Origin: a virus
IMG/VR virus record: IMGVR_UViG_3300023179_000170
Coordinates: 1 to 47,578 of that record
Direction: 5' to 3' (one strand)
DNA length: 47,578 nt
Below, one piece after another: positions 5,076 through 42,188 of the stretch; the stretch's first letter is position 1; each line of letters opens with the position of its first letter. A program made the translations under genes and the position numbers. The notes under the pieces are model-generated. The model saw only the letters and a program-made list of their open reading frames with translations, did not search any database and was not told the origin of the DNA.

Positions 5076-7087
5076 TGTCGGTGCTGCACGAACTGCCTTG
5101 CCGGCCAGACCCCGACGCCATGCTCGACATGACGACGGCGCTGTTCGCCAATGCGACAGCGGGCAAGGTGGAGCTTGCATGGACCAGTCCGCGCGAGCCG
5201 CACAACATCACCGGCGCACGCCTGTTTGCCGTGCAGGACATCGGCGCTCTGGTCGAACACGCGACGCGCCTCAATGTCACGCCGAACCGCAACGTCTATG
5301 TGTCCGCCGGACTGCGCAAGGAAACCGCCGCCTCGGATCGGCGCTGCGGCCTCTCCGACGTTCTCGCCGTCGCCGCGCTCAAGGCTGACTGCGACGCCCC
5401 CGGCTGCGTCGAAACCGCGCTGCAAATCTCGGAGGCCATCGGCATTGAGCCGACCTACGCCATGTTCACGGGCAAGCACCCGCATTTGCGCGGCTCGCTC
5501 TGGTGGCTCCTGGATGTTCCGTCCGAAGACTTCTCCCGCTGCGTCGCCATCGAACGCGCGCTGCAAGCAAAGTTCGGTTCCGATCCTGCGGTCTGCGAGC
5601 CCGCTCGGGTCATGCGCCTTGCCGGTTCCGTCGCCTGGCCCCTGAAGCAGGGGCGCGTGCTGGAAATGACTGGCCCCTTGCAGGCGCCGGTGCGGGCCAA
5701 GCCCTACACCCTTGATGAACTTGAATCCGCGCTTCGCGGCGCCGGCGCGATGCCCAAGCCGGCCGCCACCGCCACGATCCTTGACTTCAGCGCCGCCAAG
5801 CCAACTCTCGATCTTGACGGCCTGATCGAAAAGGCCCGCGAGCCCAGCCGCTGGCACGACGCCGCGCGCGACGCCGTCGCCCATCTTGTCGGCCGCGGCA
5901 CGCCCCCGGACGTCGTTCTTGATGTTCTCACCACGCCGCTCCAGCAGCCCGGCTTCTCCTGGATGCAGACCCGCAAGGAGCTGCAGGTCATGCTGTCCGG
6001 CGCACTGGCGAAGGGGATGGGGCGGGAGGCAAAACCGCAGGAGGCGGAGGAGGCAAAGGAGGCGCCAAGGCTGGCGTCTTCGCCCTTCGTCACCATCGAC
6101 GACATGCTGGCGAAGCCGCCGCCGGACTGGCTGGTCAGAGGCTATCTCATTGACGTCGGCGTCTCTGTCCTGTTTGGACCGCCCGGCAGCTTCAAGTCCT
6201 TCATCGCCCTCGACCTCGCTCTCTCCGTGGCCCACGGCCTCGACTGGCGTGGGGTCCCCGTCCGTGAGGCCCGCAAGACGCTCTACATCTGCGCTGAAGG
6301 CCAGTACGGTTTTGGGACCCGCGGCCTTGTCTGGCGCGAACACCGGGGCAAGGGAGCCGTCTGCGCGGGCTTCTGGATGCTGCCTGCGCCCGTCAATTTT
6401 CTTGTCGCCGACAATGTCGATCTCCTCGCCAAGCACATCGGCGAGTTCGGCGTAGATGCCCGCTTCATCGTCATCGACACCCTCGCCAAGAATTTTGGCG
6501 GCGGCGACGAGAACAGCACCCAGGACATGAACAAGTTCATTGCCGGTGTGGAAAGGTTGAACGCCGCCCTCAAGGCGCACGTTCTCGTCGTCCACCACAC
6601 AGGCAAGGACGTCAGCAAGGCCGAGCGGGGCTCTTCAGCCCTCCGCGGCGGCGTTGACGCGGCATTCCACCTGATCCGGGACGAGACGTCGGACCGCGTC
6701 ACCGTGCGATGCCTGAAGCAGAAGGACGGCCCCGAACCAGACGACCTCGCACTCCTGTGTCCGGTCGTCGAAGCGGTCCATCCGATTACCGGGGAGGTCG
6801 TCACGTCACGCCTTCCAACCCTGGATGAGCAGCCGATCGTCTCGCGATCTTCGGCCCGCCTCACCCGCAAGCAGCGCGCCGTTCTGGCGACGCTCGACAT
6901 TGGATCCGGGTCCCTTGCGACTCTCGCCGCACGCACCGGAACCGACAAAAGCAACCTTCGCCGCACCTTAAATGAACTGATTGCAATGCGCTTCGTTCGC
7001 CTCACGGATTCGGGGGTCTACGAGCTTGTGGTCATTTCTGAAACCGTTGGCGCTCATGGAGAAAGAGATGAAAATGACTACGATTGA
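5075..7087 (+). CDS. Primase-helicase fusion (AEP-like primase plus RepA-like AAA helicase)
   Basis: A 670-aa replication protein. Residues about 40-200 look like an archaeo-eukaryotic-type primase: KADCDAPG (Asp105, Asp107), then KHPHLRGSLWWLLD and ARVMRLAGSVAWPLK, in the order seen in phage prim-pol domains. Residues about 335-560 are a RecA-fold helicase of the RepA/RSF1010 (AAA_25) type: Walker A GPPGSFKS (368-375), Walker B FIVIDT (Asp468), and HVLVVHHTGKD with the motif-3-like His. The C-terminal ~60 residues form a winged helix (TGTDKSNLRRTLNELIAM). It would prime and unwind for a host polymerase. The iteron-like cluster starts inside its last codons. Confidence 0.85.
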   Translation: MSVLHELPCRPDPDAMLDMTTALFANATAGKVELAWTSPREPHNITGARLFAVQDIGALVEHATRLNVTPNRNVYVSAGLRKETAASDRRCGLSDVLAVAALKADCDAPGCVETALQISEAIGIEPTYAMFTGKHPHLRGSLWWLLDVPSEDFSRCVAIERALQAKFGSDPAVCEPARVMRLAGSVAWPLKQGRVLEMTGPLQAPVRAKPYTLDELESALRGAGAMPKPAATATILDFSAAKPTLDLDGLIEKAREPSRWHDAARDAVAHLVGRGTPPDVVLDVLTTPLQQPGFSWMQTRKELQVMLSGALAKGMGREAKPQEAEEAKEAPRLASSPFVTIDDMLAKPPPDWLVRGYLIDVGVSVLFGPPGSFKSFIALDLALSVAHGLDWRGVPVREARKTLYICAEGQYGFGTRGLVWREHRGKGAVCAGFWMLPAPVNFLVADNVDLLAKHIGEFGVDARFIVIDTLAKNFGGGDENSTQDMNKFIAGVERLNAALKAHVLVVHHTGKDVSKAERGSSALRGGVDAAFHLIRDETSDRVTVRCLKQKDGPEPDDLALLCPVVEAVHPITGEVVTSRLPTLDEQPIVSRSSARLTRKQRAVLATLDIGSGSLATLAARTGTDKSNLRRTLNELIAMRFVRLTDSGVYELVVISETVGAHGERDENDYD

Positions 7088-7197
7088 CCACAATGACCAC
7101 GAAAATGACCACGCGAGGCGTTCCAGCGTGGTCATTCGTGGTCATCATCCTACGGATGACCACACCACGCGCCTTGACCACGGCCAGAGCGGACCAC
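7028..7197. repeat. Iteron-like TGACCAC repeat cluster, candidate replication origin
   Basis: Eight copies of the octamer (A/T)TGACCAC, plus one 7-base variant. Forward copies: 7084-7091, 7093-7100, 7105-7112, 7156-7163, 7174-7181 and GGACCAC at 7191-7197. Inverted copies: 7028-7035, 7128-7135 and 7138-7145. They cover the end of the primase-helicase gene and the first ~40 codons of the next gene, where they force a His/Asp-rich peptide. Such clusters mark initiator-binding iterons in phage and plasmid origins; the function here is inferred. Confidence 0.6.
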
Positions 7198-7556
7198 AAT
7201 CCAATTTTGACCGGGCCACTGACGAGACGTTGGCGGCCGTGAAGCGGATCGAGGCCGAGATCGAGAAGTTGGAAGTCGAACGGAAGCGGCTGCGCGCCGA
7301 ACTGGTCGCGGCGGTGTCGGCGACCGAAGAGCGAAAGATTGTTCGACCCGGAGGGACGATCACGCTCGCCGCCGGGAAGGCCACGCTCAAGGTCGATGAC
7401 GCGGCGAAGCTGCCGAAGGAGCTGACCCGTGTCGTGGTCGAGCCCGACAAGGACGCGATCATCGACCTGATTGAATCCGGCCGCCCCGTCGCTGGCTGTT
7501 CGCTGGCTCGCGCCGCGCCGCATGTCGTCATCCGCTGGGCGAAGGGAGCTGCGTGA
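7068..7556 (+). CDS. Gp157-like phage protein
   Basis: A 162-aa protein from ATG 7068, chosen because GGAG lies six bases upstream; ATG 7056 and 7074 are alternatives. Residues 1-50 are unusual, His/Asp-rich and encoded by the TGACCAC repeats. Residues about 55-90 form a coiled coil (RIEAEIEKLEVERKRLRAEL). The C-terminal part (GKATLKVDD, LPKELTRVVVEPDKDAIIDL, IESGRPVAG) matches the Siphovirus Gp157 family in order and key residues. Gp157 genes sit beside phage recombination genes; the molecular role is not settled. Confidence 0.7.
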   Translation: MKMTTIDHNDHENDHARRSSVVIRGHHPTDDHTTRLDHGQSGPQSNFDRATDETLAAVKRIEAEIEKLEVERKRLRAELVAAVSATEERKIVRPGGTITLAAGKATLKVDDAAKLPKELTRVVVEPDKDAIIDLIESGRPVAGCSLARAAPHVVIRWAKGAA

Positions 7557-9106: not shown

Positions 9107-9574
9107 GTGCCGGACGGCGCCGTCACCCTGCAGCAACGCCGCCCGTTCGATCCCGTCACGGCGCACGCCGCCGAGAAGGGGGCGCGGGAGGCGTGGCAGG
9201 CGCGTGCAAGCGAGGCCGAAGCGCTGGTCCTCAAGGCTCGCGCCGAGCGTGACGCCGCCATCGAACGCGCCGCGCGCGCCGAGGCCGGGGCGGACGCCGC
9301 ACACCGCGACGCCGAACGCCAGCACCGCATCGGCTACCTCGAAGCGCGGTCCAAGTACGGTCTCGGCGGCATGGCGCTCGGTCTTGTGCTGACCGCCATC
9401 GTCGCCACCGGCTCCGCCCAGTTCAACGCCTGGCGGCAGGCCATGGCCGTGCGCGAGACCGTCAAGGCGTCCAACGAAGCCTTCGGGCAGGGCGTCGCCG
9501 TCGGCGCCGTCCGTGCGGACGCCGAGGACAAGGGCCTCAATCGCGGCCGCGAACCCGCGGATGCGCCGCGATGA
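9107..9574 (+). CDS. Coiled-coil single-pass membrane protein
   Basis: A 155-aa protein starting at GTG 9107. Residues about 20-75 are a long charged helix (ARASEAEALVLKARAERDA), then a transmembrane segment (about 85-105, GLGGMALGLVLTAIVATGSA), then a ~45-residue polar tail. Family unknown. It is followed by a chain of three tiny membrane genes, all joined by ATGA overlaps. Confidence 0.6.
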   Translation: MPDGAVTLQQRRPFDPVTAHAAEKGAREAWQARASEAEALVLKARAERDAAIERAARAEAGADAAHRDAERQHRIGYLEARSKYGLGGMALGLVLTAIVATGSAQFNAWRQAMAVRETVKASNEAFGQGVAVGAVRADAEDKGLNRGREPADAPR

Positions 9575-9639
9575 TCGTCGCCGGCTTCATCCTGCTGACG
9601 ACCGCCATCGCCGCCGTGACGGAGCTGGTCGGCGCATGA
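9571..9639 (+). CDS. 22-aa membrane peptide
   Basis: ATG 9571 overlaps the stop of the previous gene (ATGA), and its own TGA overlaps the next ATG. The peptide is MIVAGFILLTTAIAAVTELV plus two residues, essentially one short hydrophobic helix. Its reality rests only on the exact chain of overlaps and on the hydrophobic pattern shared with the next two genes. Confidence 0.4.
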   Translation: MIVAGFILLTTAIAAVTELVGA

Positions 9640-9713
9640 CCATGATCCTCATCACCCTTCTGGTCGCCGCCGGCATCGTCGGCGCGTGCTTCCTGTTCGA
9701 GGCGATCCGATGA
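9636..9713 (+). CDS. 25-aa membrane peptide
   Basis: Starts at ATG 9636, overlapping the previous stop, and ends overlapping the next start (ATGA at 9710). The product, MTMILITLLVAAGIVGACFL plus FEAIR, is one clean transmembrane helix with a single cysteine. Function unknown. Confidence 0.45.
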   Translation: MTMILITLLVAAGIVGACFLFEAIR

Positions 9714-9853
9714 CCGTCGCGCTCTTCATCCTTGCCATGCTGGCGCTCGCCGCCGTGGTTGCATGGATCGCCCGCTCCACCGTCTGGAGCCGCGTCAAGG
9801 GCACGGCCCCGGAGGCCGCGCCGTCCGATCCGCCCAAGGGAGACGCCCCGTGA
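9710..9853 (+). CDS. 47-aa single-pass membrane protein
   Basis: ATG 9710 overlaps the previous stop. A transmembrane helix (residues 2-20, TVALFILAMLALAAVVAWI) is followed by a basic patch (ARSTVWSRVK) and a Pro/Ala tail. The layout (short outside end, basic inside tail) fits a small inner-membrane protein. The next gene's GTG overlaps its stop. Function unknown. Confidence 0.5.
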   Translation: MTVALFILAMLALAAVVAWIARSTVWSRVKGTAPEAAPSDPPKGDAP

Positions 9854-18737: not shown

Positions 18738-19373
18738 ATGCCGACGCGCGAGAGCGTCCTGAATGACGCGCTGGCGCTTCTGGGCCAGCCGCGCATGAGC
18801 GGCCCGGCCGACACATCGACATGGGTGCGCCGTCTTGAGGGCGGGTTTGACGGCGTGGCGCAGCGGATGCTGGAAATCCACCCGTGGAACTTCGCCACGG
18901 TGCGGGAAGCGCTGGCTGCGGCGGCGGAGACCTCGCTGTCATCGTCCGGGCTGTCCCTGCAGGGCCGGTCCTACGCCTACACCAAGCCCGCCGTGGCGCG
19001 GATCGTGCTGGTCAACAGTTCCGGCGCCTGGTCCGACAATGGCGAGACGGGGCATTATGAAGATGAGGGCGGCTACATCTTCACCGACCTCTCGCCGTGC
19101 TGGCTGTTCTACATCAGCAAGAGTTGGCTGACCCGGATCGGGTCGTGGCCGGCGGTGTTTGCGTGGGCTGTGGCGACGGAACTGGCGTCCTCGCACGCCG
19201 AGGTGTCCACCAAGGACAGCGGCAAGCAGGAACAATTGATGATGCGCGCGCGGGAAGCGCTGCGGGCGGCGCGCTCATGGGATGCGTCGCAGCGGCCGTT
19301 CACGGCGCACCCGGAGGGCCGCTGGGTTCGGTCACGCCGCGGAATCGGGCGCAATCCGTACTGGGACGTCTGA
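18738..19373 (+). CDS. Tail tubular protein A (T7 gp11-like adaptor)
   Basis: A 211-aa protein with the T7 gp11 pattern: an N-terminal helix (ESVLNDALALLGQPRM), HPWNFATVREAL near residue 55, and a long C-terminal helix (QEQLMMRAREALRAARSWDA) ending in an Arg/Pro-rich tail with NPYWDV. The family forms a dodecameric ring under the portal. It is immediately followed by the gp12-like gene. Confidence 0.85.
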   Translation: MPTRESVLNDALALLGQPRMSGPADTSTWVRRLEGGFDGVAQRMLEIHPWNFATVREALAAAAETSLSSSGLSLQGRSYAYTKPAVARIVLVNSSGAWSDNGETGHYEDEGGYIFTDLSPCWLFYISKSWLTRIGSWPAVFAWAVATELASSHAEVSTKDSGKQEQLMMRAREALRAARSWDASQRPFTAHPEGRWVRSRRGIGRNPYWDV

Positions 19374-19374
19374 C

Positions 19375-22014
19375 ATGGGCGCGGTGACGGTGGGCTGGCC
19401 GGCGTTCAACGGCGGCGAGGTCGGCGAGGAGTTTCTGGCGCGGGCGGACGTGGACGTCTATCCGACCACCTGCGCCACGATGGAAAACATCTTTCCGCTG
19501 ATCCAGGGGCCCATGATCAAGGCGCCGGGCACGGAGTATGTCGAGACGCTGGCGGGCCCAGGCTGGCTGCTGCCGTTCGTGTTCAACATTGACCAGACCA
19601 TCGGGCTTTTGTTCTCGGCCTCCAAGATCCAGTTCATCTTTGACGGCGCGCTGATCCTGTCGGCGGGCGGGCCGGCGACGATCGGCAACTTTACCGATTC
19701 CAGCGATGTCGGCGCTTCGGTCACCACGGGGGCGACGTCCTCCATCCTGACCGCAACGGCGTCGGCGGATGCGAAGGCGCGGTCGACGATCACCACGGCG
19801 AGCCCGCTGGTGGCGTGCAGCCTGCAGTTCACAGTGGGCACGCGGCCCATCAAGGTGCGGATCGGGACGAGCGCCGGGGCTGCCGACATCGTGGCCGAGA
19901 CGACGTTCGCGCCGGGCACGCATGTCCAGACCTTCACGCCCGGCGTCTCGCCTTACTATCTGCAGGCCACGCTGGAGGATGAGGGGAGGTCGTCGATCAC
20001 GGCGATCTCCGCGCTGGCGGCGGGTCCGCTTTCGGTGTCGGCGCCGTACCAGGCCGCGGACTTCCGCCGGCTCCGCCACGAGCAGAGCGCAGACACGTTC
20101 TGGATCTATCACGACGAGTACCGCACGCGGGTGCTGGAGCGGCGGTCGAACACATCCTGGTCGCTGCGCCTGTTCCGGCCCACGGACGGGCCGTTCATGA
20201 TCGAGAACGACACCACCGTCACGCTGACGCCAAGCAACCGCACCGGGTCGGCGACGGTGACGGCGAGCGCGGCGACGTTCACGGCAAATGATGTGGGCCG
20301 GATTCTGGAACTGGTTTACACCGGCCAGCGGGTGGACGCGACATTCAGCGCGCTGAACCAGACCAGCAGCAGCGTGCGAATCACCGGCACCGGGGCGAAC
20401 CGCAATTTTCACTATATCGTCGCGTCGGGCCTGACCGGCACGGTCGTGCTGCAGCGGTCGGTGGGCAATGAGATCGACTGGGTGGACTATGAGACCGTGA
20501 CCACGTTCGGGTCCGACGTTTCCATCAGCGACGGGCTCGACAACCAGATCATCTATTACCGGCTGAAGGTGACGGCGTACACGTCCGGGTCGGCGGCGAT
20601 CACGATCTTCTATTCGCTTGGCGAGACGATCGGGAACGGCGAGATCAGCGCTTACACGTCAACGACGCAGGTGACGGTGGAGATCGCCAAGGGCTTCGGC
20701 GGCGATGGCTCCGGCACGACGCGCTGGAGCCTGGGTGCATGGTCGGATGGCGAGGGCTGGCCCACGGCGGGGACGCTGTGGGACGGACGCCACTGCATTG
20801 TGCGCGATGACCGGCTCTGGATCAGCGCCAGCGACGACTATGAGAGTTTCGCCGTTGGCACGGACGATGCTGACGCGATCTCGCGGCGTATGGGAACCGG
20901 CGCAGTCAATATCGCGCGATGGATCGAGGGCGGGTCGCGGCTGCTCATCGGCGCGGCTGGCGCGGAACTGGAAGTGCGGTCGAACGCCAGCGACGAACCG
21001 ATCACGCCGACGAACATCAACCTTCGCACGGCGTCTGGCCGCGGATCGGCGGCGGTGCAGGCGCTGGCGGTCGGGGACCGGCGCGTCGCCTATGTGTCGC
21101 GGTCCGGGCGTCGGCTGTGTCAGATGCTCTATGACATCGAAAGCAACGCGCACCGCTCCGACGACATGACGCGGCTGCACAAGGACATCGCCGGCGCCGA
21201 TGACGGGCAGTTCATCCAGCTTGCCTGGCAGCAGGAGCCGGAATCCCGCATCTGGTGCCTGCGCGACGACGGGCAGATCGCGGTGATGCTCTATGCGCCG
21301 GATGAGGGCGTCTATGGCTGGTCGCGGTTAAAGGCCGCGGGCGTGGATGCGACCTATACCAGCGTCTGCATCCTGCCCGGCACGCCGGAAGACACGGCCT
21401 ATGTGATTGTGCAGCGCACGGTGAACGGCGCGGCGGTCTATCACCTCGAACGCTTCAAGCCGGAACGGGTGACCACAAGCGCGGACGCCTGGCGGGTTCA
21501 CGCCGGCCTGCAATACTCCGGGGCGGCGGCAACAACGCTGACAGGGCTTGACCATCTGGAAGGCGAGAGCGTCGCGATCTGGGCGAACGGGCGTGTGCAT
21601 CCTTCGCGCACGGTGACAAGCGGGGCGGTGACGCTCGACTATGCAGTCACGAAAGCCATTGCGGGCCTCAACTATTCCGGCCTGTGGAAGTCCGCCAAGC
21701 TGGCCTATGGGTCACGGCTGGGATCGGCGCTGTCGGCGGAAAAGCAGGTCAAGCGGCTGGGCGCGATCGTGCGCGACACGGCGGTGGGGGCGCTGTCCTA
21801 TGGCCGCGACTTCACCAACACGGACATTGTCGGCACGGAGTTCGAGGACGGGTATCTCATGGACACGGCGGTTCCGCTGGCCTCGTTGGAGGTGAACCAG
21901 ATGTTCGACGGCGAGACCGACACGGATTCGCGGGTGTGCCTCGTCATGGACAAGCCGGCGCCGGTGATGGTGCTGGCGCTTATTCCCCACATGGATCTCC
22001 AGGAGCGGACGTGA
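19375..22014 (+). CDS. Tail tubular protein B (T7 gp12-like nozzle)
   Basis: An 879-aa protein starting at ATG 19375, one base after the previous stop. The N-terminal MENIFPLIQGPMIKAPGTEY fits the NxxPxxxGxxxxxPGT signature of gp12-like nozzle proteins. The rest is beta-rich, with repeats of SA/TA-rich strands (VTASAATFTANDVGRILELV). Six copies would form the tail nozzle. The C-terminus (LALIPHMDLQERT) leads into an overlapping GTG. Confidence 0.85.
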   Translation: MGAVTVGWPAFNGGEVGEEFLARADVDVYPTTCATMENIFPLIQGPMIKAPGTEYVETLAGPGWLLPFVFNIDQTIGLLFSASKIQFIFDGALILSAGGPATIGNFTDSSDVGASVTTGATSSILTATASADAKARSTITTASPLVACSLQFTVGTRPIKVRIGTSAGAADIVAETTFAPGTHVQTFTPGVSPYYLQATLEDEGRSSITAISALAAGPLSVSAPYQAADFRRLRHEQSADTFWIYHDEYRTRVLERRSNTSWSLRLFRPTDGPFMIENDTTVTLTPSNRTGSATVTASAATFTANDVGRILELVYTGQRVDATFSALNQTSSSVRITGTGANRNFHYIVASGLTGTVVLQRSVGNEIDWVDYETVTTFGSDVSISDGLDNQIIYYRLKVTAYTSGSAAITIFYSLGETIGNGEISAYTSTTQVTVEIAKGFGGDGSGTTRWSLGAWSDGEGWPTAGTLWDGRHCIVRDDRLWISASDDYESFAVGTDDADAISRRMGTGAVNIARWIEGGSRLLIGAAGAELEVRSNASDEPITPTNINLRTASGRGSAAVQALAVGDRRVAYVSRSGRRLCQMLYDIESNAHRSDDMTRLHKDIAGADDGQFIQLAWQQEPESRIWCLRDDGQIAVMLYAPDEGVYGWSRLKAAGVDATYTSVCILPGTPEDTAYVIVQRTVNGAAVYHLERFKPERVTTSADAWRVHAGLQYSGAAATTLTGLDHLEGESVAIWANGRVHPSRTVTSGAVTLDYAVTKAIAGLNYSGLWKSAKLAYGSRLGSALSAEKQVKRLGAIVRDTAVGALSYGRDFTNTDIVGTEFEDGYLMDTAVPLASLEVNQMFDGETDTDSRVCLVMDKPAPVMVLALIPHMDLQERT

Positions 22015-22956: not shown

Positions 22957-24449
22957 TGGCCCGCCTCCCGGGACCGGAGGATGTCCAGCGCACGCCGCTG
23001 GCGGTGACGCGCCGCATCGTGGAGGCGCCGGTCGATCAGAGCGGCGGGCAGATGGTGCGTGTTGCCGACGCCGCCAGCGAACTGCTGGGACGGGTCCGGG
23101 ACGCGCAGATCGAGGCGGAGGTGCGCGCCGCGGACTCGCGCTATGCGCTGGATCTCGACCGCGCCCGGCGCGAGCTGGAGGCCGACAACGACTACACGAC
23201 CTATGAGCAGCGCTTTCAGCAGAAGGCGCAGGAGCTGCGCAATACCTACGCGGAGCGCCTGTCATCGCCGGCGCATCGCCGGTTGTGGACGCAGCGCGCC
23301 GACGCGCAGGCGGCGCAGGGCACGGTGCAGGTCCGCGATCTCGCGCGCCGCAAGAGCATTGAAGGTGCGGTGTCAGGCGTCGTCCAGTTGGGGGCCGCGG
23401 CGCAGGAGATCATCGACGATGACGGCGCGCCGGAGAGCCTGCAGGTCAGCCAGCTTCAAAGCTACGCGCATATGGTCCGCTCCAACGTTTCACGTGGAAT
23501 CATCCCCGCCGACGACGGCGAGCGCATGGTCGCCACCATGGAGCAATACTACCGGACGAGGGCGGAGCAGCGCTCCCTTGTCGCCGGGGCGCAGCGTGCG
23601 GCTGATGCGGTGTTTGCGGACCCGCGGCTGGTCACGCTGGACGACAAACTGGGCTGGGTGCGCCAGAACGTGCCGGAGGGAAAGGCGCGGGCGGCGGCCG
23701 AGGATGAGGTCGCGCAGCGGTTCCAGCGGCAGCGTGTGGCGCGGGAAGAGAGCCAGGAGCAGGATCGCATCGCCTTCATGCGGGCCGAGAACGGCGACGG
23801 GACGCTGGACGGCGCGACGCGGGCGCGGATCGAACAGGAGCAGCCGGACTTCATCCAGCAGCGGCGCGAGTATCGCCGCTCGCTCTGGCGCCAGGGCGTG
23901 GCGGACGTGGAGACCGCGCGGCGCGAGGCGCAGCTTCAGTCGCAATCGGCGACGGACGGGCTGATCGCCGACGCGCTCAACGACCCCGCCAAGTTGCGCA
24001 GGCTCATGGAGGCGACGCCGGAGCAGTTGCAGCGTATCACGGCGCGGCTGGAGCCGGATGACGCCGTTCGGCTCGGGCAGTTCCGGGCAAGGGCGCTTGG
24101 CCGCGGCGGCGGCGACGACGCGCAGGCGCAATTGGTCGAGAAGGTGTTTTCCGACCTCTATAGCCGGGCGGAGCCGCAGGCTGTGCTGATGCTCGACGGC
24201 GAGTTCGGCGGAACGAAGGGCAAGGGTGAGGTCAACAAGGCCCAGTTGCGGCGCTATCTTCTTGGCAATGCGCGGGAGTTCGTGACGCGCTATGGCCGGG
24301 CGCCAAGCGAGCAGGAACTGACGACCATCGTCAATCGCGGGTTTGAGCAGCAGCGCACGCGCAACGAGTACGGTCAGTCCTTCCAGTACCGCTTCGGTCG
24401 CCCGCCGCCGTTGCCGCTCACCGCGGAAGAGCAGAAGCCGCCGCGATGA
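22956..24449 (+). CDS. Internal virion core protein (T7 gp15-like)
   Basis: A 497-aa highly helical, charged protein with no membrane segment. Long heptad-like stretches (DLDRARRELEADNDYTTYEQ, QSYAHMVRSNVSRGIIPADD) and the position between the gp14-like protein and a transglycosylase-bearing ejection protein match T7 gp15, a part of the inner core that forms the periplasmic ejection tube. Both ends overlap neighbours by TGATG/ATGA. Confidence 0.75.
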   Translation: MARLPGPEDVQRTPLAVTRRIVEAPVDQSGGQMVRVADAASELLGRVRDAQIEAEVRAADSRYALDLDRARRELEADNDYTTYEQRFQQKAQELRNTYAERLSSPAHRRLWTQRADAQAAQGTVQVRDLARRKSIEGAVSGVVQLGAAAQEIIDDDGAPESLQVSQLQSYAHMVRSNVSRGIIPADDGERMVATMEQYYRTRAEQRSLVAGAQRAADAVFADPRLVTLDDKLGWVRQNVPEGKARAAAEDEVAQRFQRQRVAREESQEQDRIAFMRAENGDGTLDGATRARIEQEQPDFIQQRREYRRSLWRQGVADVETARREAQLQSQSATDGLIADALNDPAKLRRLMEATPEQLQRITARLEPDDAVRLGQFRARALGRGGGDDAQAQLVEKVFSDLYSRAEPQAVLMLDGEFGGTKGKGEVNKAQLRRYLLGNAREFVTRYGRAPSEQELTTIVNRGFEQQRTRNEYGQSFQYRFGRPPPLPLTAEEQKPPR

Positions 24450-27400
24450 CGGAGCCCGTCACCAAGGACGATCTCTGGGGCGAGCTGGGCGCGTCGCCGT
24501 CCGACAAGGAGCGCGACGACCGCACGCTCGACCAGCAGGCGCGGGACAATTTCTGGCGCTCGCTGGATGAGGACGCGGACGCCCGCGCCCGGATGGCGCG
24601 CAATGCGCAGGCGCTCGGGACCGCGCCGGTGCTGGGCAAGGAGGCCGAAACCCGGCTGCAGCGGCTCGCCGACGCCAAGACGGCGCAGGAGACGATCAAC
24701 GCCAACAAGGGGCTGCAGGGGTGGTTCTCCAACCTGCACCGGGCGACGATCTCGCACGACGACGTCGAGGGGCTGGCGGGGATTGAGAAGGCCGCTGGGT
24801 TCCTGACGTTGGATGATCTGCGGCGGGGCTGGAACACGCTGACAAGGCGGCCGGACGCCGTGAACACTGCCGTGCGCGCCAACATGGGCAACGCCGGGGT
24901 GGGGCCGGACGCCGGGCGGGGTGCGGCGGCGCGCGTCGGGGCGATTGGCCGCCAGGTCAACAATTCGTGGACGGCGTCGCAGCTCGACGCTAAGGCGGCC
25001 CGGCTGGAGACTCGCAGGGCGGCGGCCGTGGTGGGCGCCGGAGACTGGACCGAGGCCGACCAGCGGGAGCTGGACGATGCGCGAACGGAAGCAGCCCTCC
25101 GAAGACTGGGTGGTCTTCAAAAGGTTCCTGATACTCTTGTTGGCGTTCTCAATTCTGGCGCCTCTGGTATCGTTTCTGGTGGCGTGGGGATGGTACGTGG
25201 CCCGGTAGACGCCGGGACCAACGTCGCCGAAAACGCCATCGCGGCGTCCAATCCGTTCTGGAAGTACGGGCGCTTTGCGCCTTACGCCGCCATGTCGGGG
25301 ATGCCGAAGGCGGAGGCCGTCGCTCCGCGCACAAGCCCCGTCATGGCTGGCCTGATGAAAATGGCCGGCGCGACGCCGGACCAATCGCTCGCGGCCAGCG
25401 CGCTTCTGTCGGCCGCGTCCGCTGACCCGCGTGTCGGGTTCCTTCGGGGGTCTGCGGAGTTTACGGCGGAGCAGGAAGCGGGCGGTGCTTTTCAGCAATA
25501 CCGGCAAGTCCAGACGCTCGACGGCCGCCCGCTCAATGAAAAGTACGCCGCGGAAGCGGCGATGCTCGTCGGCGCCATCAATGCTGGGCTTGAGTTTGGC
25601 ACCGGCGCGCTGATCGGCGGGGCATGGGGCTCGACGCGGGAACTGCGCGACAAGTTGCTGGCGCAGGGCGGACAGGCGGCGGTGCGGCGTTTTGCGCTGG
25701 GCGAGATCGTCAAGAAATACGGCTTGCGCGTGCTCGCCACCGGCGCCGGCGAAGGTACGGAAGAGGTGGTGCAGGCCGCCAGTACGCAGACATTTGAAGA
25801 GTTCGCCAAACTGAAAGACGGCGGCGAGTTCGCCCCGACGGACTGGAGCGCCTTCGCCGCATCGGCGCTGGAGCAGGGCGCCTATGGCTTTGCGGGCGGC
25901 CTCATGTTCGGCCTGCCGGTCATGGGCGTCGAACTGCGCGCCGACCTCCAGGCCCGCGACGCAGCGCTCGCCACCCGCGACCGGGTGCTGGCGCTGGCGG
26001 ATGCGGCGAAGAAGGCCAGGCTCACGACCCGCGACCCCGACGCCGCGGCGGCATTCATTGACGACCACGCCGCGCCGGGTGCGCCGCCGATCCTGATCGA
26101 CGTGCAGGGCATGATGACGCTGGCCCAGGAGGCGCGCCAGTCGCCGGAGGAGTTCGCGCAGTCGCTGGGCATCGCGCCAGAGCGCTACCGCGCCGCGGTG
26201 GAAGGCGACGGCGTCATCGAGGTGTCTGCCGGTCACTACGCGACGCGCATCGCGCTGACGGCCCACGGGCCGAAGCTCGCAGACCACATCAGCATGGACC
26301 GCAGCCAGCCGACCCCGGCGCAGGCGGAAGCCGCGGTGAAGGAGGCGGAAGCGCAGGTCGCCGCGGTGCAGAAGGCGGCGGAGGAAGAAAGCCGCACGCT
26401 GGTCGAGAAGGCCAAGGCCCACCCGGACTATGAGGTCTTGCGCAAGGAGGTCGAGGGCATCCTGACCGCTGGCGGCGCGGGCGACCGCGGCGCCGTGAAG
26501 ATGCAGGCCGAACTGATCGCCGCGAACATGGCGGCGAACGCCGACAAGCTGGACCCGGAGACCTATCCGATCGGGCGCGGCGACATGGTGAGCGTCGGCG
26601 GCTCTGCGGAGCGCCTGTCGGAGACGCCCGCGCCGGAGCCGCGCCGGGTGCGCGAGATCATCACCACCGCCGACGGCGAGCGCCAGGCGCTGCTTGAAGG
26701 CTCCTCCGTGCCGGTCCCGGTGGAGCAGTTGACGCGCGAGGGGCCGGTGTCGCCCATCGCCGTCTTCAGCCGCTTCAATCTGCGGGTGGAGTCCTACAAG
26801 GACCGCGAGGCTGCGGCGACGGCGGAGGCCGATTTCTTCGCGCGCATGGGCGCCGCTACGCCCGCAAGCGGCGTGACGATGAACCAGTTTGCGGGGGTCC
26901 GCGCCAAGACTGCAAACCGGGGCGCGCTGGCGGATGCGCAACAGCGGATCGCCAGCGGCGAGGACGCGGAAGTCGTGCGCCGGGAAACCGGGTGGTTTCA
27001 GGGCGACGACGGGTCGTGGAAGTTCGAGATCGACGACAGCAAGGCGCGCTTCACCAAGATGCCGAAGAAGCCGGGCTTTCACGGCGACGAGCTTGGTTTT
27101 GAAGGGCCGCTGGGCCGAATCCTGGACCACCCGGACCTGTTCCGCGCCTATCCGTCTCTCTACAAATTCCCCGTGCGGATCGAGATCACGCACGAACCAA
27201 TGATGTCGCACTTCAGTTCAACTGGGCTGAACGTCGAAGGCGAGACGCAGGAGGAGGCCATGGCCATCCTCATGCACGAAATCCAGCACTACATTCAGGA
27301 CGTCGAGAAATGGGAAGGCGGCGCGAACCCTGCCGCGGCGGAGCCGATGCGGGAGAACTGGTACAACGCCATCGTCAAGCTGATGGAAGACCTGCAGGCC

Positions 27401-29032
27401 GAGGGCCGCGGCCACAACATGATCCCGGAACTGGACTGGCTCCTGACGAAGATCGCGGAGTTTAATCCGGGCGACAACAACAGCTTCTTCGGCGGCCCCA
27501 GTGGATTTGCCGTGCGCGGTTACGAAACCACCATCGGCGAGACGGAGGCGCGGAATACGCAGGCTCGCCTGCGGATGACCAAGAAGCAGCGCAACGAGAC
27601 GCCGCCGGACGTCACGCGCGACGTGCCCCGCGGCGCTACCGTCACGCGCGAGTTCCCGTTCATCATGCGCGAAGGCGCGGAACAGGAACTGGAAGACGCG
27701 GTCAAGAAAGCATCCGCGGCCATTGGCTTGCCCTGGACAAAGAATGCGCAGGATCGCGGACTCACCGGCGAGCGCATTCTTGGAATGATTACGCAGGGCG
27801 GATTTGGGGGCGCGCGCGGTTACAACACGTTTGTGGCGCGGGATGCTGCGCAAAAACTAGCGCGTGGTACGCATGACTGGGGCGGACCGCTGGACGATTG
27901 GGATATCAAGCATCTGGAAAAGGACCTTCAAGATTCCACGCAGATCCTTCAAGTCCTCGACGCCGTAGAAGCGACCGGTGTCCAGAACCGCCTGTTTGCA
28001 GATGCATCGGCGTTCGGGCTTGTGTCGGACCTGGAAGTCGAGGGCTATCGCCGGCAGGTGGACGAGAAGGGCCGTCCGCTGAAGCGCGCCGACGACGGCA
28101 TGGAGCCGGCGTCGTATCGCATCGCCACATCCCCCGCCCCCACCCCACTCCAGATCGCCGAAGCCCTGCGCGAGGCGGCGCGGTGCGCGGCGGAGATGAG
28201 CGCGGCGGCTGCCGCGGGCGGCACGGCGGCGTTCATGGCGGGCAATGCGATTGCGGCGACGGCGGCGCTGCCGGCGGGGATCGCGGTGTCGGCAGCGACG
28301 GCGGCTCAGAACGAGGCCGAAGCGCAGCGGAGGGCGGAAGAGGAGCGGATTGCACGCGCGCGGGCGGAAGCCGAAGCCAGGGCGGCGGAAGAGAAGCGCA
28401 AGGCCACGCTCAAGCGCGACAATTTCGCGGGCTATCTGTCGGAACTGCCGTCCATCGATGCGATGTACCCGGAGGTCGCGAAAGAACTTGGCGTGCCGGA
28501 GCAGTACCTGCGCGATCTTGTCCAGCATGAGAGCGGCGGCGACTTTGCGGCGGATGCGCCGACGTCCAGTGCGTTCGGCGCCGGGCAGTTCATCAATGAT
28601 GCATGGAAGACCGAAACGGCGCTGATGGATGGTCGCTACGGGCCGGAGCCGTGGGCCGGGCAGGAGCAGCGCGACATGGATATGGAGCGGGCGCAGCCGA
28701 ACTGGATGCTGCTCGCCATTGCACAGCGGGCGCGCCGCGATGCGGTCGGGCTGCGCAACGCCATCGGGCGCACGCCGACGCAGGGCGAGGTCTATCTGGC
28801 GCACTTCCTCGGGCCGAAAGCGGCGGTGGATCTGATCGAGGCCGCCGACCGCGGGGTCAAGAACGCGGCGGCGCATTTCAAGGACGCCGCGAAGGCCAAC
28901 CGGAGCGTGTTCTACGAGGGCGGCGATCTGCGGCGCCCGCGCACGGCGGCGGGCGTGCGGGACAAGCAGACGGAAGGGTTCTCTTCCGAGAAATTCACCA
29001 TCGGCGCAACGCGCTTTGAGGATACGCCCTGA
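24446..29032 (+). CDS. Giant ejection protein with zincin motif and lytic transglycosylase (gp16-like)
   Basis: A 1528-aa protein in the T7 gp16 position. In order: an N-terminal helical region with a Gly-rich hydrophobic segment (about 215-260); a helical middle; a module starting MNQFAGVRAKTA (812) and containing ETGWFQGDDGSWKFEI; a zinc peptidase motif HEIQH (944-948); an Ala-rich membrane-like segment (about 1255-1290); a charged coiled coil; and a C-terminal SLT-type lytic transglycosylase with Glu1362 in QHESGG, then AFGAGQFI and YLAHFLG (1450-1456). In T7 the transglycosylase is N-terminal. It would be injected and open the cell wall. A 43-aa gene is nested in another frame at 25077-25208. 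Confidence 0.85.
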   Translation: MTEPVTKDDLWGELGASPSDKERDDRTLDQQARDNFWRSLDEDADARARMARNAQALGTAPVLGKEAETRLQRLADAKTAQETINANKGLQGWFSNLHRATISHDDVEGLAGIEKAAGFLTLDDLRRGWNTLTRRPDAVNTAVRANMGNAGVGPDAGRGAAARVGAIGRQVNNSWTASQLDAKAARLETRRAAAVVGAGDWTEADQRELDDARTEAALRRLGGLQKVPDTLVGVLNSGASGIVSGGVGMVRGPVDAGTNVAENAIAASNPFWKYGRFAPYAAMSGMPKAEAVAPRTSPVMAGLMKMAGATPDQSLAASALLSAASADPRVGFLRGSAEFTAEQEAGGAFQQYRQVQTLDGRPLNEKYAAEAAMLVGAINAGLEFGTGALIGGAWGSTRELRDKLLAQGGQAAVRRFALGEIVKKYGLRVLATGAGEGTEEVVQAASTQTFEEFAKLKDGGEFAPTDWSAFAASALEQGAYGFAGGLMFGLPVMGVELRADLQARDAALATRDRVLALADAAKKARLTTRDPDAAAAFIDDHAAPGAPPILIDVQGMMTLAQEARQSPEEFAQSLGIAPERYRAAVEGDGVIEVSAGHYATRIALTAHGPKLADHISMDRSQPTPAQAEAAVKEAEAQVAAVQKAAEEESRTLVEKAKAHPDYEVLRKEVEGILTAGGAGDRGAVKMQAELIAANMAANADKLDPETYPIGRGDMVSVGGSAERLSETPAPEPRRVREIITTADGERQALLEGSSVPVPVEQLTREGPVSPIAVFSRFNLRVESYKDREAAATAEADFFARMGAATPASGVTMNQFAGVRAKTANRGALADAQQRIASGEDAEVVRRETGWFQGDDGSWKFEIDDSKARFTKMPKKPGFHGDELGFEGPLGRILDHPDLFRAYPSLYKFPVRIEITHEPMMSHFSSTGLNVEGETQEEAMAILMHEIQHYIQDVEKWEGGANPAAAEPMRENWYNAIVKLMEDLQAEGRGHNMIPELDWLLTKIAEFNPGDNNSFFGGPSGFAVRGYETTIGETEARNTQARLRMTKKQRNETPPDVTRDVPRGATVTREFPFIMREGAEQELEDAVKKASAAIGLPWTKNAQDRGLTGERILGMITQGGFGGARGYNTFVARDAAQKLARGTHDWGGPLDDWDIKHLEKDLQDSTQILQVLDAVEATGVQNRLFADASAFGLVSDLEVEGYRRQVDEKGRPLKRADDGMEPASYRIATSPAPTPLQIAEALREAARCAAEMSAAAAAGGTAAFMAGNAIAATAALPAGIAVSAATAAQNEAEAQRRAEEERIARARAEAEARAAEEKRKATLKRDNFAGYLSELPSIDAMYPEVAKELGVPEQYLRDLVQHESGGDFAADAPTSSAFGAGQFINDAWKTETALMDGRYGPEPWAGQEQRDMDMERAQPNWMLLAIAQRARRDAVGLRNAIGRTPTQGEVYLAHFLGPKAAVDLIEAADRGVKNAAAHFKDAAKANRSVFYEGGDLRRPRTAAGVRDKQTEGFSSEKFTIGATRFEDTP
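25077..25208 (+). CDS. Nested 43-aa membrane protein in an alternative frame
   Basis: Inside the ejection gene, a second frame starts at ATG 25077 with GGGAG seven bases upstream. It encodes a charged N-terminus (MRERKQPSEDWVVFKR), a strong transmembrane helix (FLILLLAFSILAPLVSFLVA) and WGWYVAR. In this stretch the ejection-protein frame uses mostly T-ending codons, unlike the rest of the gene, while the nested frame keeps G/C at third positions. That codon pattern suggests the nested frame is the constrained one. It could be a holin- or antiholin-like peptide; function is unproven. Confidence 0.6.
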   Translation: MRERKQPSEDWVVFKRFLILLLAFSILAPLVSFLVAWGWYVAR

Positions 29033-32000
29033 TGCACCCGGAATGCCGCGCCCGCGTGTCGAAGGTTCTCGGCCGGGAGGTCACCGACGACATGGACGCG
29101 GCGCTGACGCAGCGCATCGAGGCGTCAATGCGCACGCTGTCGCGGCAGGACGTGGCGGCGTGGCGCGCGCTGCCGCAGACGGAGAAGTGGCGCCGGGCGG
29201 CGGACCATGCTGCGGCGCAGGTGGAGGCCGCGGCGGTGGGGCAGACCTTCAACCAGGATGGCGCCGTCTCTCGCGCACAGGCCGCAGGCTATCAGGGCGC
29301 CGACACCGGCGAGGCGGTGGAGTGGCTGCGCGCTAAGGCCAAGGGTCTCGACATGAGCACGGAAGCGCGCATGGCGAGGGCGAGAGAGCAGGGCTGGGAT
29401 ACGAGCAAGCCGCAGTATCACGGCACCCCATCCAGATCTTCGGAACACAACAACAAATATGTTCGCGCAGAAGGCGACGATAGGTACATCCCGCTATTTG
29501 AGGCTTTTGATTCAACAAAGGGAGCAGCCTCAGATAGCGGATGGTTAGGAAGTGGCGGCGTCTATGTTACAGAAGATCCTGAATATGCGTTCGAGTTCGG
29601 AGATAGAATTCTCCCGCTGTTCATACGGACATCCAAACCATTTGATGTACTGGACTCTAACACCACCAGTTACGAGTCATTGTTCTTGCTGCGAAAGCAA
29701 GTGCAAGAACTCGGGATGCAATTGCCAGAAAAGTGGCGTCTTGATCTAACGGAGCCTCCCGCAAAGAAGACATTCAAGTCGTATGACGGTAGGCAAATAA
29801 CCACGCACTACACAGTGCGAGAGGCGCCGAACTCGGAAGACCCGAATACAAGATGGGCCGTGGTCTCTGGGTCAAGGCCCTATGCAGAAAGTCGTTCTGG
29901 AATTGTTGAGGCGAGCGGGCCGACGCGTGAACAAGCAATTGGGCTATTCAACGACAATCAACGCAGCGGTGGAAAGCCTTTCGGCTTCTCCAGCCGCTTG
30001 ATCGGAGACTACGGACCGAAGCGTTTTGTGGAAGACCTTAAGGCACGCGGATTTGATTCCGTGCGCGCAGTGGATTCTCAGAATGGCAGGGTTTCAGAAA
30101 CACTTGTCTTCGACCCCCGCAACATCCGCTCCATCCACGCCGCCTTCGATCCTGACTTCAAGGACAGCGCGAACCTGCTCGCCCAGGGCGAACCCGCCGT
30201 CGGCGTCCGCGGCGACTTCACGATCTGGCGCGCTGACGCCCGGTGGCGCGTCAATGAGCTGGAGCGCCAGACGCGCATCCGGCTCTACGCCGCGCGCGAC
30301 ATGTCCACGATGCTCCACGAAACGGGGCACCTGTTCCTTGAGGTCATGCGCACGCTGGCGCCGTCGAGCCCGCAGATCGCGGCGCAACTGGAGGACGTGC
30401 GCCAGTGGGCGGGCCTGAAGGACGGCGAAGACTTTGAGGAGCGCCACCACGAACTGTTCGCGCGGACGTTTGAGGCCTACCTGATGGAGGGGAAGTCGCC
30501 GTCGCTGCGCCTCAGGAAGGCGTTCGAGGCGTTCAAGGCGTGGCTGACGGCGATCTATCGCGCCGTCACCGGCCGGCTCGTGACGCGCGACGGGATCGAC
30601 TATGGCGCGACGCGACTCTCACCGGAAATCCGCGCCGTGTTCGACCGGATGGTGGCGACGGACGCCGAGATCGCACAGGCCCGCGCGCTGCAGGGCATGG
30701 AGCCGCTGACGCAGGCCCAACTCGGGCTGACCGATGAGGCTTATGCGAAATATCTGGCGTCCTTCGAGCGGGCGCGCGTCGCGGCCGAGAACGACCTGCG
30801 CGCCGAAACGATCCGCCAGGTCATGCGCAAAAAGCGGGCGGAATGGAAGCGCCGCGAGGCGCAGCATCGCCGCGTCGTGACGCTGAACGTGAACGGCCGG
30901 CGCGAGTACCGGGCCGAAGACCTGTTCACCGATGGCCGCTGGCGCGATGGCGTCGGCGTCGGGCAGGCGCTGCCGCCGGACGAGGCGATGCAGGACCGGG
31001 ACGAGGCGGAGGCTGCGGGGGCGCAGGCGGAGCGGGAGATCATCGACGGCCGCAGCTACGACCAGTTCGCCGGACCGCGCGCCCGCACGGCGGACCTGTC
31101 GAAACTGAAGCAGGCGCAGGATCGCGTCGCGGCAGGGGAAGACCCCGAACAGGTGCGCAAGGACACCGGCTGGTTCAAGGACAGCGCGGGCCAGTGGCAG
31201 TTCGAGATCAGCACGGCGGATGTGCGCGTGCGGCTGACCCCGGAAGCGGCTGCCGCGGCCAATGCGTCGCGACGGCTAAACGCGATGGAGGTCCGGCACG
31301 CGCTGATGGTCGGCGACATGGATGCCTTCATGGACCCGCTGTCGCCACTGGCGCAGCACTATGCGCTGCTACCCGACGTACTGGATGCCAAGGATCTGAT
31401 CGAGGCGTACCCAGACCTTGCCAGCCTCCGGGTCGTGTTCGTGAACATGCCCGCCGGGTTCAACGGGGCCGCCCTGCCAGAGGACTACCAGACGGGGCGT
31501 CCCGGTTTCATCCTCCTGGATAGCCATCTGTCCATCGAGAAGGCGAGATCGACCCTCATTCACGAGCTTCAGCATGTGATCCAGGCCTCCGAGGAGTGGA
31601 TGGTCGGCGGAATGCCGGAGCAGGCGTCCGCCTATATCGACCTCGCCGATCAGGACACCGTCGATGCGGTGCTGTTGCGGCTGAAGGCGGCGGGGCTGCC
31701 GGCGACATCGAACAACGTATATCGCGTCTTCACCGGGGAGGATCAAGCCTTCGAGTCCGAGGCGCGCCGCAACATGACGCCGGAAGAACTGCAGGCGACG
31801 CCGCCCGTTAACGCCTATGCGCCGTCCCTGCCGACGCGGCCGAACTCCCGCGCCGGGCTGGAGGACTTCAAGGACCGGGTGCTGAAACGGTTCGGGATCG
31901 TGCTGTCCGTGGGGCCGTCGCTGTCGCGGGAGCCCCTGTGGTTCTCCGCGCTGGAGCGCGCGGTGGAGGGCTCGCAGACCAAGAAGGCGAGCGCGGCGCA

Positions 32001-40403: not shown

Positions 40404-41069
40404 ATGGACACGAATTCTCTTCGCGAGGCGGCGGCTACCCTTCGCACCCATACCCGTGATCGCATTGGCGACATCATGGGGCGCGTGCGCTGGCTGGCGA
40501 TGGAGGTGCAGAAGGTTGCGCTTGAAATCGAGGGCACGACGCAAGAGGAAGAAGACCTGCGCGAAGTCGCCGCTGCCATGCTGCGCTACTCCTCGCGGTA
40601 TGACGCACGGGCGCCGGAGCCGCCGCCGGTGGGGGCGCTTGTCGAGCCGCACTCGCCCAAGATTCCGGAAGCGCCTGCCATCCCGGAGCCTGTCAGCGTT
40701 TATGACGCGGACACGGCGACGCGAACGCTTGAGGCGCCTTCGGAGCCCCGCGAGTTCCTGTGGCTTCGGCCGGACCTCTGGAACACGCTGGCGGAAGCGC
40801 AGGCCGCGTTGCGCGGACACATCCAGCAGGAGCACGCCGCGCGGACGCAGACGCGGGCCATTGCGCTTGAGGCGGTGGTTGACCTGGCGCTCCTGGACAA
40901 GCGCACAGAGGCGCAGGAAATCGAACTGTCGCAACACAGCCTGCTGAAGGACCGCCTTCGCAATGTGGATGCGGTGCGGGCCGACAAGCTGGCGGAAGTG
41001 GCCGCGCTCACCTCTCTGGAAAGCGCGCGCGCCTATGCCGGCACGGTGCCCGTCGGGTGGGAGACATGA
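40404..41069 (+). CDS. Hypothetical protein after the tail fibre, possible fibre-assembly role
   Basis: A 221-aa protein. ATG 40404 is favoured for GGAGA five bases upstream. Two helical parts (residues 1-70 and about 115-221) flank a Pro-rich linker (PEPPPVGALVEPHSPKIPEA). The C-terminal half, ending ESARAYAGTVPVGW, resembles the short domains seen beside tail fibre genes (DUF4376-like). This hints at a fibre chaperone or accessory role. No peptidoglycan hydrolase motif is visible. It overlaps the spanin gene by ATGA. Confidence 0.45.
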   Translation: MDTNSLREAAATLRTHTRDRIGDIMGRVRWLAMEVQKVALEIEGTTQEEEDLREVAAAMLRYSSRYDARAPEPPPVGALVEPHSPKIPEAPAIPEPVSVYDADTATRTLEAPSEPREFLWLRPDLWNTLAEAQAALRGHIQQEHAARTQTRAIALEAVVDLALLDKRTEAQEIELSQHSLLKDRLRNVDAVRADKLAEVAALTSLESARAYAGTVPVGWET

Positions 41070-41944
41070 GCTTCGACGAATGGCATGACAGCGACGAACA
41101 CGCCCGCGCTGCGGCGCAGGAGGATGCGTGGTTTGAGCGTAACCGCGTCGAAATCAGCCTCGGCACGCTGCTGTTCCTGACGTGGTGGTTCATGCCGCGC
41201 CTCGTGGCGCTCGTCTGCCTTGGGCTTCTTGTTGCGTTCGCAGTGCTGCGCCGCGTTCCGCAGGCGCTGCCGACGCTGCGCTTCATCTGGCGCGTCTGCC
41301 TGATGCCGCTGGCGAAGATCGACGACTGGATCATGGCGCGCTGGCGGGCGTTCAAGATCGTGCTCGGCAAGCGCATGGTCGCCATGCAGGCGGACTGGCA
41401 GGTGCTGCAAGAATGGCTGCGGCTGGCGCTGAAGCGGGAAAAGGACGACCGCGTCGTCTCCGCCATGGCCTACCATCAAGGCTTTGTGTCGGGCCGCGTG
41501 CTGTCGCCGCTCAATGTGCTCGGGCGCTGGATTCCGGCCATTGCCTTCGGGATCGGCATGCTGCTTGCGGGATCGGTGCAGTCCTGGCGCATCCACAACA
41601 TCAAGGAAAAGCTGAGCGAGGCGACGGAGAGTGCGCAAAGCTGGCAGGCTGAAGCGAAGCAGGCGCGTGCGGATGCGGCGGCGATTGCCATCCAGCGGAA
41701 CGCCGACGTGAACGCGGCCAACGCACGGGCGCTGGAGACGGCGGAACTTCTTAGGGCTGAGCGGGAGAGGGTCGAACAACTCTCTACGCGGGAAAGGAGA
41801 CGTAGGAATGAAGCTCAACGCGCTGCTGCTGGCGGGCCCCCTCCTGATTTTGAACGGAGCCTGCGCGACATTGCCAATCCCCAAGCGGGCGCCGCCCCCG
41901 GCGCCGATGCCGCCCCCGCGGCCGGCGGTGATCGTCCCGGCTGA
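41066..41944 (+). CDS. Rz: Rz-like i-spanin with an extended N-terminus
   Basis: A 292-aa protein. Residues about 33-61 and 152-173 are hydrophobic membrane segments. About 178-245 form a long charged coiled coil (KEKLSEATESAQSWQAEAKQ), the part that in i-spanins crosses the periplasm. The C-terminus is Pro/Ala-rich. Typical Rz proteins are about 150 aa with one membrane segment, so ~150 residues with an extra membrane region are added here. The o-spanin gene starts inside this gene in another frame, the classic Rz/Rz1 arrangement. Confidence 0.7.
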   Translation: MSFDEWHDSDEHARAAAQEDAWFERNRVEISLGTLLFLTWWFMPRLVALVCLGLLVAFAVLRRVPQALPTLRFIWRVCLMPLAKIDDWIMARWRAFKIVLGKRMVAMQADWQVLQEWLRLALKREKDDRVVSAMAYHQGFVSGRVLSPLNVLGRWIPAIAFGIGMLLAGSVQSWRIHNIKEKLSEATESAQSWQAEAKQARADAAAIAIQRNADVNAANARALETAELLRAERERVEQLSTRERRRRNEAQRAAAGGPPPDFERSLRDIANPQAGAAPGADAAPAAGGDRPG

Positions 41945-42188
41945 ATGCACGGTGCCGCCGGCGCCGCGGACGCCGTTCCAGCCGCCGGACTTGCCGACGC
42001 TTGCAGCGCTCGATTCCAAGAACCCGCTGCCGCACTGGATCAGCCGCACGTCGCGCGCTGAAACCCTGGCGACGGCGCTGCTGGGCGAAGTAGACCGCAT
42101 CCTGACCGAGGACCGCACGCGCGACGCGCTGGCGGAAAGCTGCGCGCGCTGGGCCGACAGGGTCGCGCGCGAGCAGGCGGGCCAATGA
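41808..42188 (+). CDS. Rz1: Rz1-like o-spanin lipoprotein
   Basis: A 126-aa protein starting inside the i-spanin gene in another frame (overlap 41808-41944), with AAAGGAG eight bases upstream. A lipoprotein signal (MKLNALLLAGPLLILNGAC) ends at Cys19; the -3 residue is Asn rather than the usual Leu. A strongly Pro-rich stretch follows (KRAPPPAPMPPPRPA), as in Rz1. It would sit in the outer membrane and fuse membranes with the i-spanin at lysis. It is longer than most Rz1 proteins because of a C-terminal helical domain. Confidence 0.75.
   Translation: MKLNALLLAGPLLILNGACATLPIPKRAPPPAPMPPPRPAVIVPAECTVPPAPRTPFQPPDLPTLAALDSKNPLPHWISRTSRAETLATALLGEVDRILTEDRTRDALAESCARWADRVAREQAGQ

Follow-up and report, generated by a model that had tools for sequence, protein, structure and literature searches.

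A candidate overprinted membrane-protein gene within the ejection-type gene of an uncultured phage

Introduction

Genes nested on the same strand within larger genes are known from tiny ssDNA and ssRNA phages, and in large dsDNA phages they are skipped by standard gene callers. One such case is gene E of phiX174, which lies in gene D; in PMC8227390, third-position T of the host gene is described as becoming second-position T of the nested gene, which gives the codons of a Leu-rich helix. That work also uses codon usage as a criterion of age, the usage of the newer frame lying further from that of the genome than the usage of the ancestral frame. The levivirus sgl genes are presented, in the relevant sections of PMC7693330, as de novo, lineage-specific open reading frames (ORFs) with a Shine-Dalgarno (SD) sequence and one transmembrane (TM) helix, often placed in the +1 frame of poorly conserved stretches. 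A search of the open-licence literature returned no report of an overprinted gene inside the ejection protein of a short-tailed phage.

The DNA analysed here, called the window, is the IMG/VR record IMGVR_UViG_3300023179_000170, a virus record of its own of 47,578 bases derived from an uncultured viral contig. The segment 25077-25208, which lies out of frame in a large ejection-type gene, is interpreted as a genuine overlapping gene, overprinted in this phage lineage and encoding a single-pass membrane protein, with a probability of roughly 0.6. That it is a translated nested gene of either origin, overprinted or captured, is regarded as quite likely. The kind of nested gene is already known; this member is new, and its local reversal of codon bias is unusually clear.

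The phage, the host gene and its relatives

Matches were obtained, in order, for a terminase, a head-tail adaptor (phrog_332), a tail protein (phrog_376) and then ejection-type genes. This gene order, together with the matches, assigns the phage to the short-tailed phages, with BcepC6B, epsilon15 and HTVC010P as relatives, and the surroundings of the host gene follow the epsilon15/BcepC6B-type order. The host gene is the following.

24446-29032, plus strand: host gene for an ejection-type protein of 1528 aa, with LPD22 at residues 38-117, LPD23 at residues 814-869 and a transglycosylase-like C-terminus at residues about 1249-1510

Two other regions of the window deserve mention. The tail gene ORF 19282-22014 is over-extended; the start in agreement with relatives is the ATG near 19375, after the gene 18738-19373. 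A spanin-like pair was recognized at 41057-41944 and 41808-42188. Its first member is a candidate inner-membrane spanin, which has an additional hydrophobic stretch at the N-terminus, and the ORF that overlaps it is lipoprotein-like.

Homologs of the N-terminal part of the host protein were collected at 34 loci (L093-L126) by alignment-based scans; single-query scans with the main protein, the tail protein and the 2769-aa protein found no relatives, whereas alignment queries did. The 34 rows include some near-duplicates, which were left out of the relatives' profiles; L093 lies on the contig of L022, and L097 and L120 share one contig. A profile of the relatives matched the main protein with a best-domain E of 3.9e-34. 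Among the matches listed (the best 80 of at least 600) the nearest record is L022, with a capsid protein 78% identical and a tail protein 46% identical, and it is without the nested ORF; these matches gave no relative near enough for synonymous sites to be compared.

The nested open reading frame and its predicted product

The elements at the start of the nested frame are listed below.

25077-25208, plus strand: nested ORF of 43 aa in frame +1 of the gene that starts at 24446, with ATG at 25077 and TAG at 25206-25208
25065-25069, plus strand: GGGAG, SD-like, 7 nt 5' of the nested ATG and in the predicted loop of a small hairpin, CCAGC-GGGA-GCUGG (RNA fold)
25043-25072, plus strand: main-frame motif DWTEADQREL, residues 200-209, which aligns in relatives as lTxxExxrL

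The nested ORF, whose translation is MRERKQPSEDWVVFKRFLILLLAFSILAPLVSFLVAWGWYVAR, lies wholly within the coding frame of 24446-29032 on the same strand, and the frame of 43 aa, its ATG, the GGGAG site, the spacing and the length given in the initial annotation were all borne out by the sequence. The SD is supplied by the Arg-Glu (R-E) codons of the motif DWTEADQREL. A GGAG-type SD precedes two of the 22 +1-frame ATGs of the host gene, and 34 stops occur in the +1 frame over its 1528 codons.

The nested protein has a basic N-terminus, with five basic residues before a single hydrophobic helix at residues about 17-41. AlphaFold2, run on the single sequence of 43 aa, gave a helix at 8-42 with a mean pLDDT of 87.6, and the distribution of charges predicts an N-in, single-pass topology with almost nothing outside. 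The Kyte-Doolittle value over 19 residues (KD19) of the nested segment is 2.78, the second highest of the nine stop-to-stop segments above 2.2 in a six-frame scan of the whole window. Elsewhere in the window, at 9253-9850, strongly hydrophobic helices occur in three overlapping frames, which are probably small membrane genes.

The 43 aa gave no homolog in phages, plasmids, Pfam or NCBIfam; the best PHROG match (E=0.48, unknown function) and the PDB matches, which were to designed helical channels (E 0.15-0.87), were regarded as noise. In 21 records a single match was returned, in the record of L022 (E=0.001 over 27 aa), and it was rejected as chance, being antisense to another ORF; the 31 other records searched gave none, an empty result that alone shows little.

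Codon usage in the two frames

The main frame has a third-position GC content (GC3) of 0.83 over the whole gene and of 0.80-1.0 in most upstream 20-codon windows, falling to 0.30-0.45 inside the nested ORF, while GC1 (0.70-0.80) and GC2 (0.45-0.55) show no fall across the segment. T occupies the third position in 19 of the 43 codons, the maximum for the host gene, so that the run of T-ending codons reported earlier is confirmed. Among 9988 windows of 42 codons taken from 16 chosen genes, none has a lower main-frame CAI than the segment, and 11 of the 12 lowest-CAI windows overlap it. Because the third positions of the main frame are the second positions of the +1 frame, T at these sites encodes Phe, Leu, Ile, Met or Val. 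In the helix part, counting codons where both bases are possible, T and A stand at third positions in a ratio of 13:1, against about 9:5 expected.

The initial annotation also took the G/C-ending codons of the nested frame as a sign that the nested gene is the older or more constrained of the two. Such positions are present (0.77), but they are less telling than supposed, being the first positions of the main frame, which are 0.71 G/C gene-wide; since G/C third positions are thus the default of the nested frame, greater age does not follow. The codon usage of the nested frame correlates with that of the phage genes at r=0.31, and that of the main frame in the overlap at r=-0.01, the means being 0.66 for gene windows and 0.29 for ordinary +1 windows. 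The nested value is equalled or exceeded by 47% of ordinary +1 windows and is worse than 95% of gene windows, and for CAI as well as for codon correlation the nested frame falls in the lowest 4-5% of gene windows. Its codon usage is therefore no better than that of ordinary off-frame windows in +1, and the claim of an older nested gene is not supported. The age criterion of PMC8227390 would expect the lower value in the newer frame; the reverse is found here, and both values are low. The codon usage of either frame seems to be a compromise, which fits dual coding, and the nested frame is not thereby shown to be older.

Tests against chance

Two null models were built from the host gene, its codons being either resampled by phage usage (n=2000) or permuted (n=1000). 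An off-frame ORF of at least 30 aa with KD19 of at least 2.0 arose in 0/2000 resampled and 0/1000 permuted genes. When synonyms were permuted inside the segment only, 69% of the permutations gained a stop, 31% stayed open, 25% reached a KD of 2.0 and 0.8% reached the observed hydropathy. With the usage of the phage's own low-GC stretch, stops appeared in 96% of cases, and none of 20000 was as hydrophobic as observed.

A maximum-likelihood frame-switch scan, in which the stops of the other frame were neutral and which was blind to ATG and stop, returned a +1-coded segment at 25082-25205 with log-odds of 18.6, within two codons of the ATG and the stop. The same log-odds in 300 codon permutations of the host gene had a mean of 6.2 and a maximum of 13.3. 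As a positive control, the scan with stops penalised recovered a true overlap, that between the gene 18738-19373 and the over-extended ORF that starts at 19282. The null genes and the frame-switch scan thus both give a second-frame coding signal that exceeds chance. The CAI of the nested frame (0.45) is only mildly above that of off-frame windows, being matched in 6% of open off-frame windows and in 8.6% of those in the +1 frame.

The scan was also run more widely, on 174 stop-to-stop ORFs of loci with GC of at least 0.58. As a significance test this run was rejected, since it is not a clean null and several of its scores exceed 18.6, the top ones belonging mostly to real neighbour genes under over-long ORFs or to wrong-strand ORFs; it was kept as a lead only, for L111, L103 and L099. 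In view of GC3, CAI, the null models and the frame-switch scan, the sequence is best read, as had been proposed, as holding a small gene for a membrane protein out of frame within an ejection-type gene.

The main-frame linker in this phage and in relatives

A similar nested ORF is absent at all 34 loci. When the whole main ORF is considered, four of them (L114, L116, L121 and L123; GC 0.46-0.60) have an off-frame segment with KD19 above 1.6, and only that of L114 lies in the equivalent linker. In this low-GC relative, a hydrophobic +1 ORF without a clear SD extends over the linker at 3816-4055, probably by composition alone.

In relatives the nested segment corresponds to a variable linker, Gly/Ala-rich and hydrophobic, which does not align. 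AlphaFold2 was applied to main residues 1-468 of the window in an alignment that also took in 28 of the 34 loci (L120 and L122-L126 not all included), and a confident helix was obtained at 203-220; the nested gene begins over the end of the conserved main-frame helix. The model also delimits the following segment, and the linker under the nested hydrophobic part is probably disordered.

25133-25276, plus strand: main-frame low-confidence linker, residues 230-277, pLDDT mostly below 50 (AlphaFold2), overlapping the nested hydrophobic part

The main-frame interval from the motif at 200-209 to an EQEAG motif at about 342 comprises 135 residues, compared with 73-106 (median 93) at the 34 loci. The surplus of about 42 aa over the relatives' median is close to the 44 codons of the nested gene, and its position was assessed by a deletion scan against two profiles of relatives.

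25193-25348, plus strand: main-frame residues 250-301, where the surplus of about 43 aa fits slightly better than in the nested segment

Removal of 43 residues from 250-262 onward beats removal of 211-253 by about 8 bits. This speaks weakly for a main frame that existed before and was later overprinted, the extra residues lying beside the nested gene. The distribution of the nested frame is also the narrower, the N-terminal part of the host being found at 34 loci with no nested homolog in their records; since relatives conserve the main protein to either side of the segment and the nested gene was not found in them, the main gene looks to be the ancestral frame.

Other nested genes in the ejection family

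The locus L111 carries at 5790-6011 a 73-aa +1 ORF inside a homologous ORF of 1686 aa, with an SD-like GGAGAGG and a dip in main-frame GC3, and this nested ORF matches phrog_2423 (E=3.1e-6). At 5643-5936 of L099 a homolog of it (49% over 43 aa), with an SD-like site, also lies nested in the +1 frame. A search of 31 records found phrog_2423 genes at other places in four of them, among these a second site in the record of L111 itself, and genes of this type stand alone in the relatives G023, G027, G036 and G044. The likeness to the present nested ORF consists in a small +1 gene in a homologous ORF, an SD-like sequence and a GC3 dip; the difference is that the phrog_2423 genes lie over main residues of about 804-903, encode a different protein which is not a membrane protein, and belong to a family that also stands alone. 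The nested and standalone copies together indicate that small genes do come to be placed out of frame in this ejection gene, and that at least one kind belongs to a family that occurs separately too. An off-frame coding signal of 83 aa was also seen inside the homologous ORF of L103, at 7044-7295, without a family match; it may be a nested gene or a frameshift.

It is tempting to speculate, though tentatively, that the linkers of the giant ejection genes of these podoviruses serve as nurseries for out-of-frame small genes, there being at least two unrelated cases, at different sites of a single gene family, in which the codon bias of the host gene yielded locally. The present reversal was found blind from the sequence of a high-GC genome, which provides a simple way of scanning GC-rich phages for small membrane genes that lie hidden. 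Within this gene family the scan also brought out a second small nested gene, one backed by homology. If the nested ORF is translated, structural genes of tailed phages pay a codon cost for an embedded protein.

Origin of the nested frame

According to the preferred reading, the nested gene would have arisen by overprinting of the loose, Gly/Ser/Val-rich linker of the ejection protein. Translation would be initiated at the internal ATG 25077 of the late structural mRNA, from the SD given by the main-frame Arg-Glu codons, and the product would be a 43-aa single-pass protein with its basic N-terminus inside and its helix across the inner membrane. Selection on nested second positions, where T gives Leu, Phe, Val or Ile, would have driven the main third positions to T against the G/C bias of the phage. 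Translation, membrane insertion and late timing are what we infer.

The initial annotation had suggested that a small membrane gene may have been captured. On this reading a pre-existing gene was inserted, its length leaving open the main frame, which reads through it as a linker. The long main-frame interval, with a surplus near the length of the nested gene, speaks for this, as do the phrog_2423-type genes, standalone elsewhere and nested in L111 and L099, which suggest that genes of this family do undergo such insertions. The deletion scan, however, puts the surplus just downstream, which slightly disfavours capture; moreover, searches of phages, plasmids and the relatives' records gave no homolog of the 43 aa that stands alone, and the nested codon usage is not native-like. 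Capture is therefore considered unlikely, though it is the best placed of the alternatives.

It is somewhat less likely that the +1 frame is untranslated and that the T-ending stretch results from a slow-translation patch, a recent recombination or an RNA signal. A Gly/Ser/Val-rich linker with T-ending codons yields Leu, Val and Phe automatically in +1, as seen in the share of within-segment permutations that stay open and reach a KD of 2.0, and the linker of L114 indicates that such frames form easily once third positions are T. Yet the hydropathy actually seen is attained by hardly any of those permutations, the helix part favours T over A, and the codon change begins and ends with the nested ORF. 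If a low-GC piece had been brought in by recombination, GC would be lower at every codon position and not at the third alone, and an RNA structure signal was not found, the segment having neither an Rfam match nor an unusual fold. The low-GC stretch used for comparison, 29,400-30,100 inside the 2769-aa gene, has GC lowered at all codon positions and looks like an acquired domain (peptide with HGT...); as a second nested gene it was rejected because every codon position falls.

The weakest alternative is a compensated frameshift, two opposite indels near 25077 and 25208, either real or due to assembly of this uncultured contig, whereby the main protein itself would carry the helix; in its favour the nested peptide put into the main protein scores higher against the relatives' profiles (120.2 vs 111.4 and 116.4 vs 110.2), and the relatives' linkers are of Gly/Ala-rich, hydrophobic character. 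It is improbable, since the advantage disappears without residues 259-301 (135.5 main, 132.0 nested), a native frame should show ordinary codon usage and not values in the lowest few per cent of gene windows, and both ends of the switch coincide with an SD-preceded ATG and a stop although such +1 sites are few, which makes an artefactual double frameshift unlikely. Overprinting in this lineage thus remains the preferred origin.

Possible role and comparison with known systems

As regards function, a late inner-membrane protein that helps or times lysis is the first choice, a doubtful guess made by analogy; superinfection exclusion or an ejection-related membrane role would be the next guesses. 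The nested ORF resembles embedded lysis genes in being short, preceded by an SD, endowed with one TM segment and placed inside a large gene. Embedded, specific to its lineage and predicted to have a single helix behind a basic N-terminus, its product recalls the phiX174 E and levivirus Sgl proteins. A Leu-Ser dipeptide is typical of lysis proteins of the MS2 L type, and none occurs in the nested 43 aa. The ORF would not be a sole lysis gene, given the spanin-like pair, nor does it lie where a holin or antiholin would be placed, being 16 kb from that pair; no holin or antiholin family was matched in Pfam or NCBIfam, and the function of the best PHROG match is unknown.

The host gene order matches that of the ejection proteins gp14-16 of T7 and gp13-17 of epsilon15, as outlined in the passages of PMC8954989 on these proteins, and a transglycosylase-like domain is shared; the nested ORF differs in matching none of them. 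With the embedded sgl genes of leviviruses, as far as the cited sections describe them, the locus has in common lineage specificity, an SD, one TM helix, the +1 frame and a position in a weakly conserved stretch of a large gene. Leviviruses differ in being ssRNA phages without another lysis system, and Sgl activity was tested there, the present ORF being known from its sequence.

A further likeness, drawn without any claim of sequence similarity, is to gene E in gene D of phiX174 (Microviridae), where the gene of a small membrane protein is likewise enclosed completely by a structural-morphogenesis gene and read in another frame, although the present phage is a tailed dsDNA phage with spanin genes of its own, for which a lysis role of the nested product is only guessed. 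In phiX174 T-ending codons are found genome-wide, so that E was nearly free; here the genome favours G/C-ending codons, and the bias is reversed locally.
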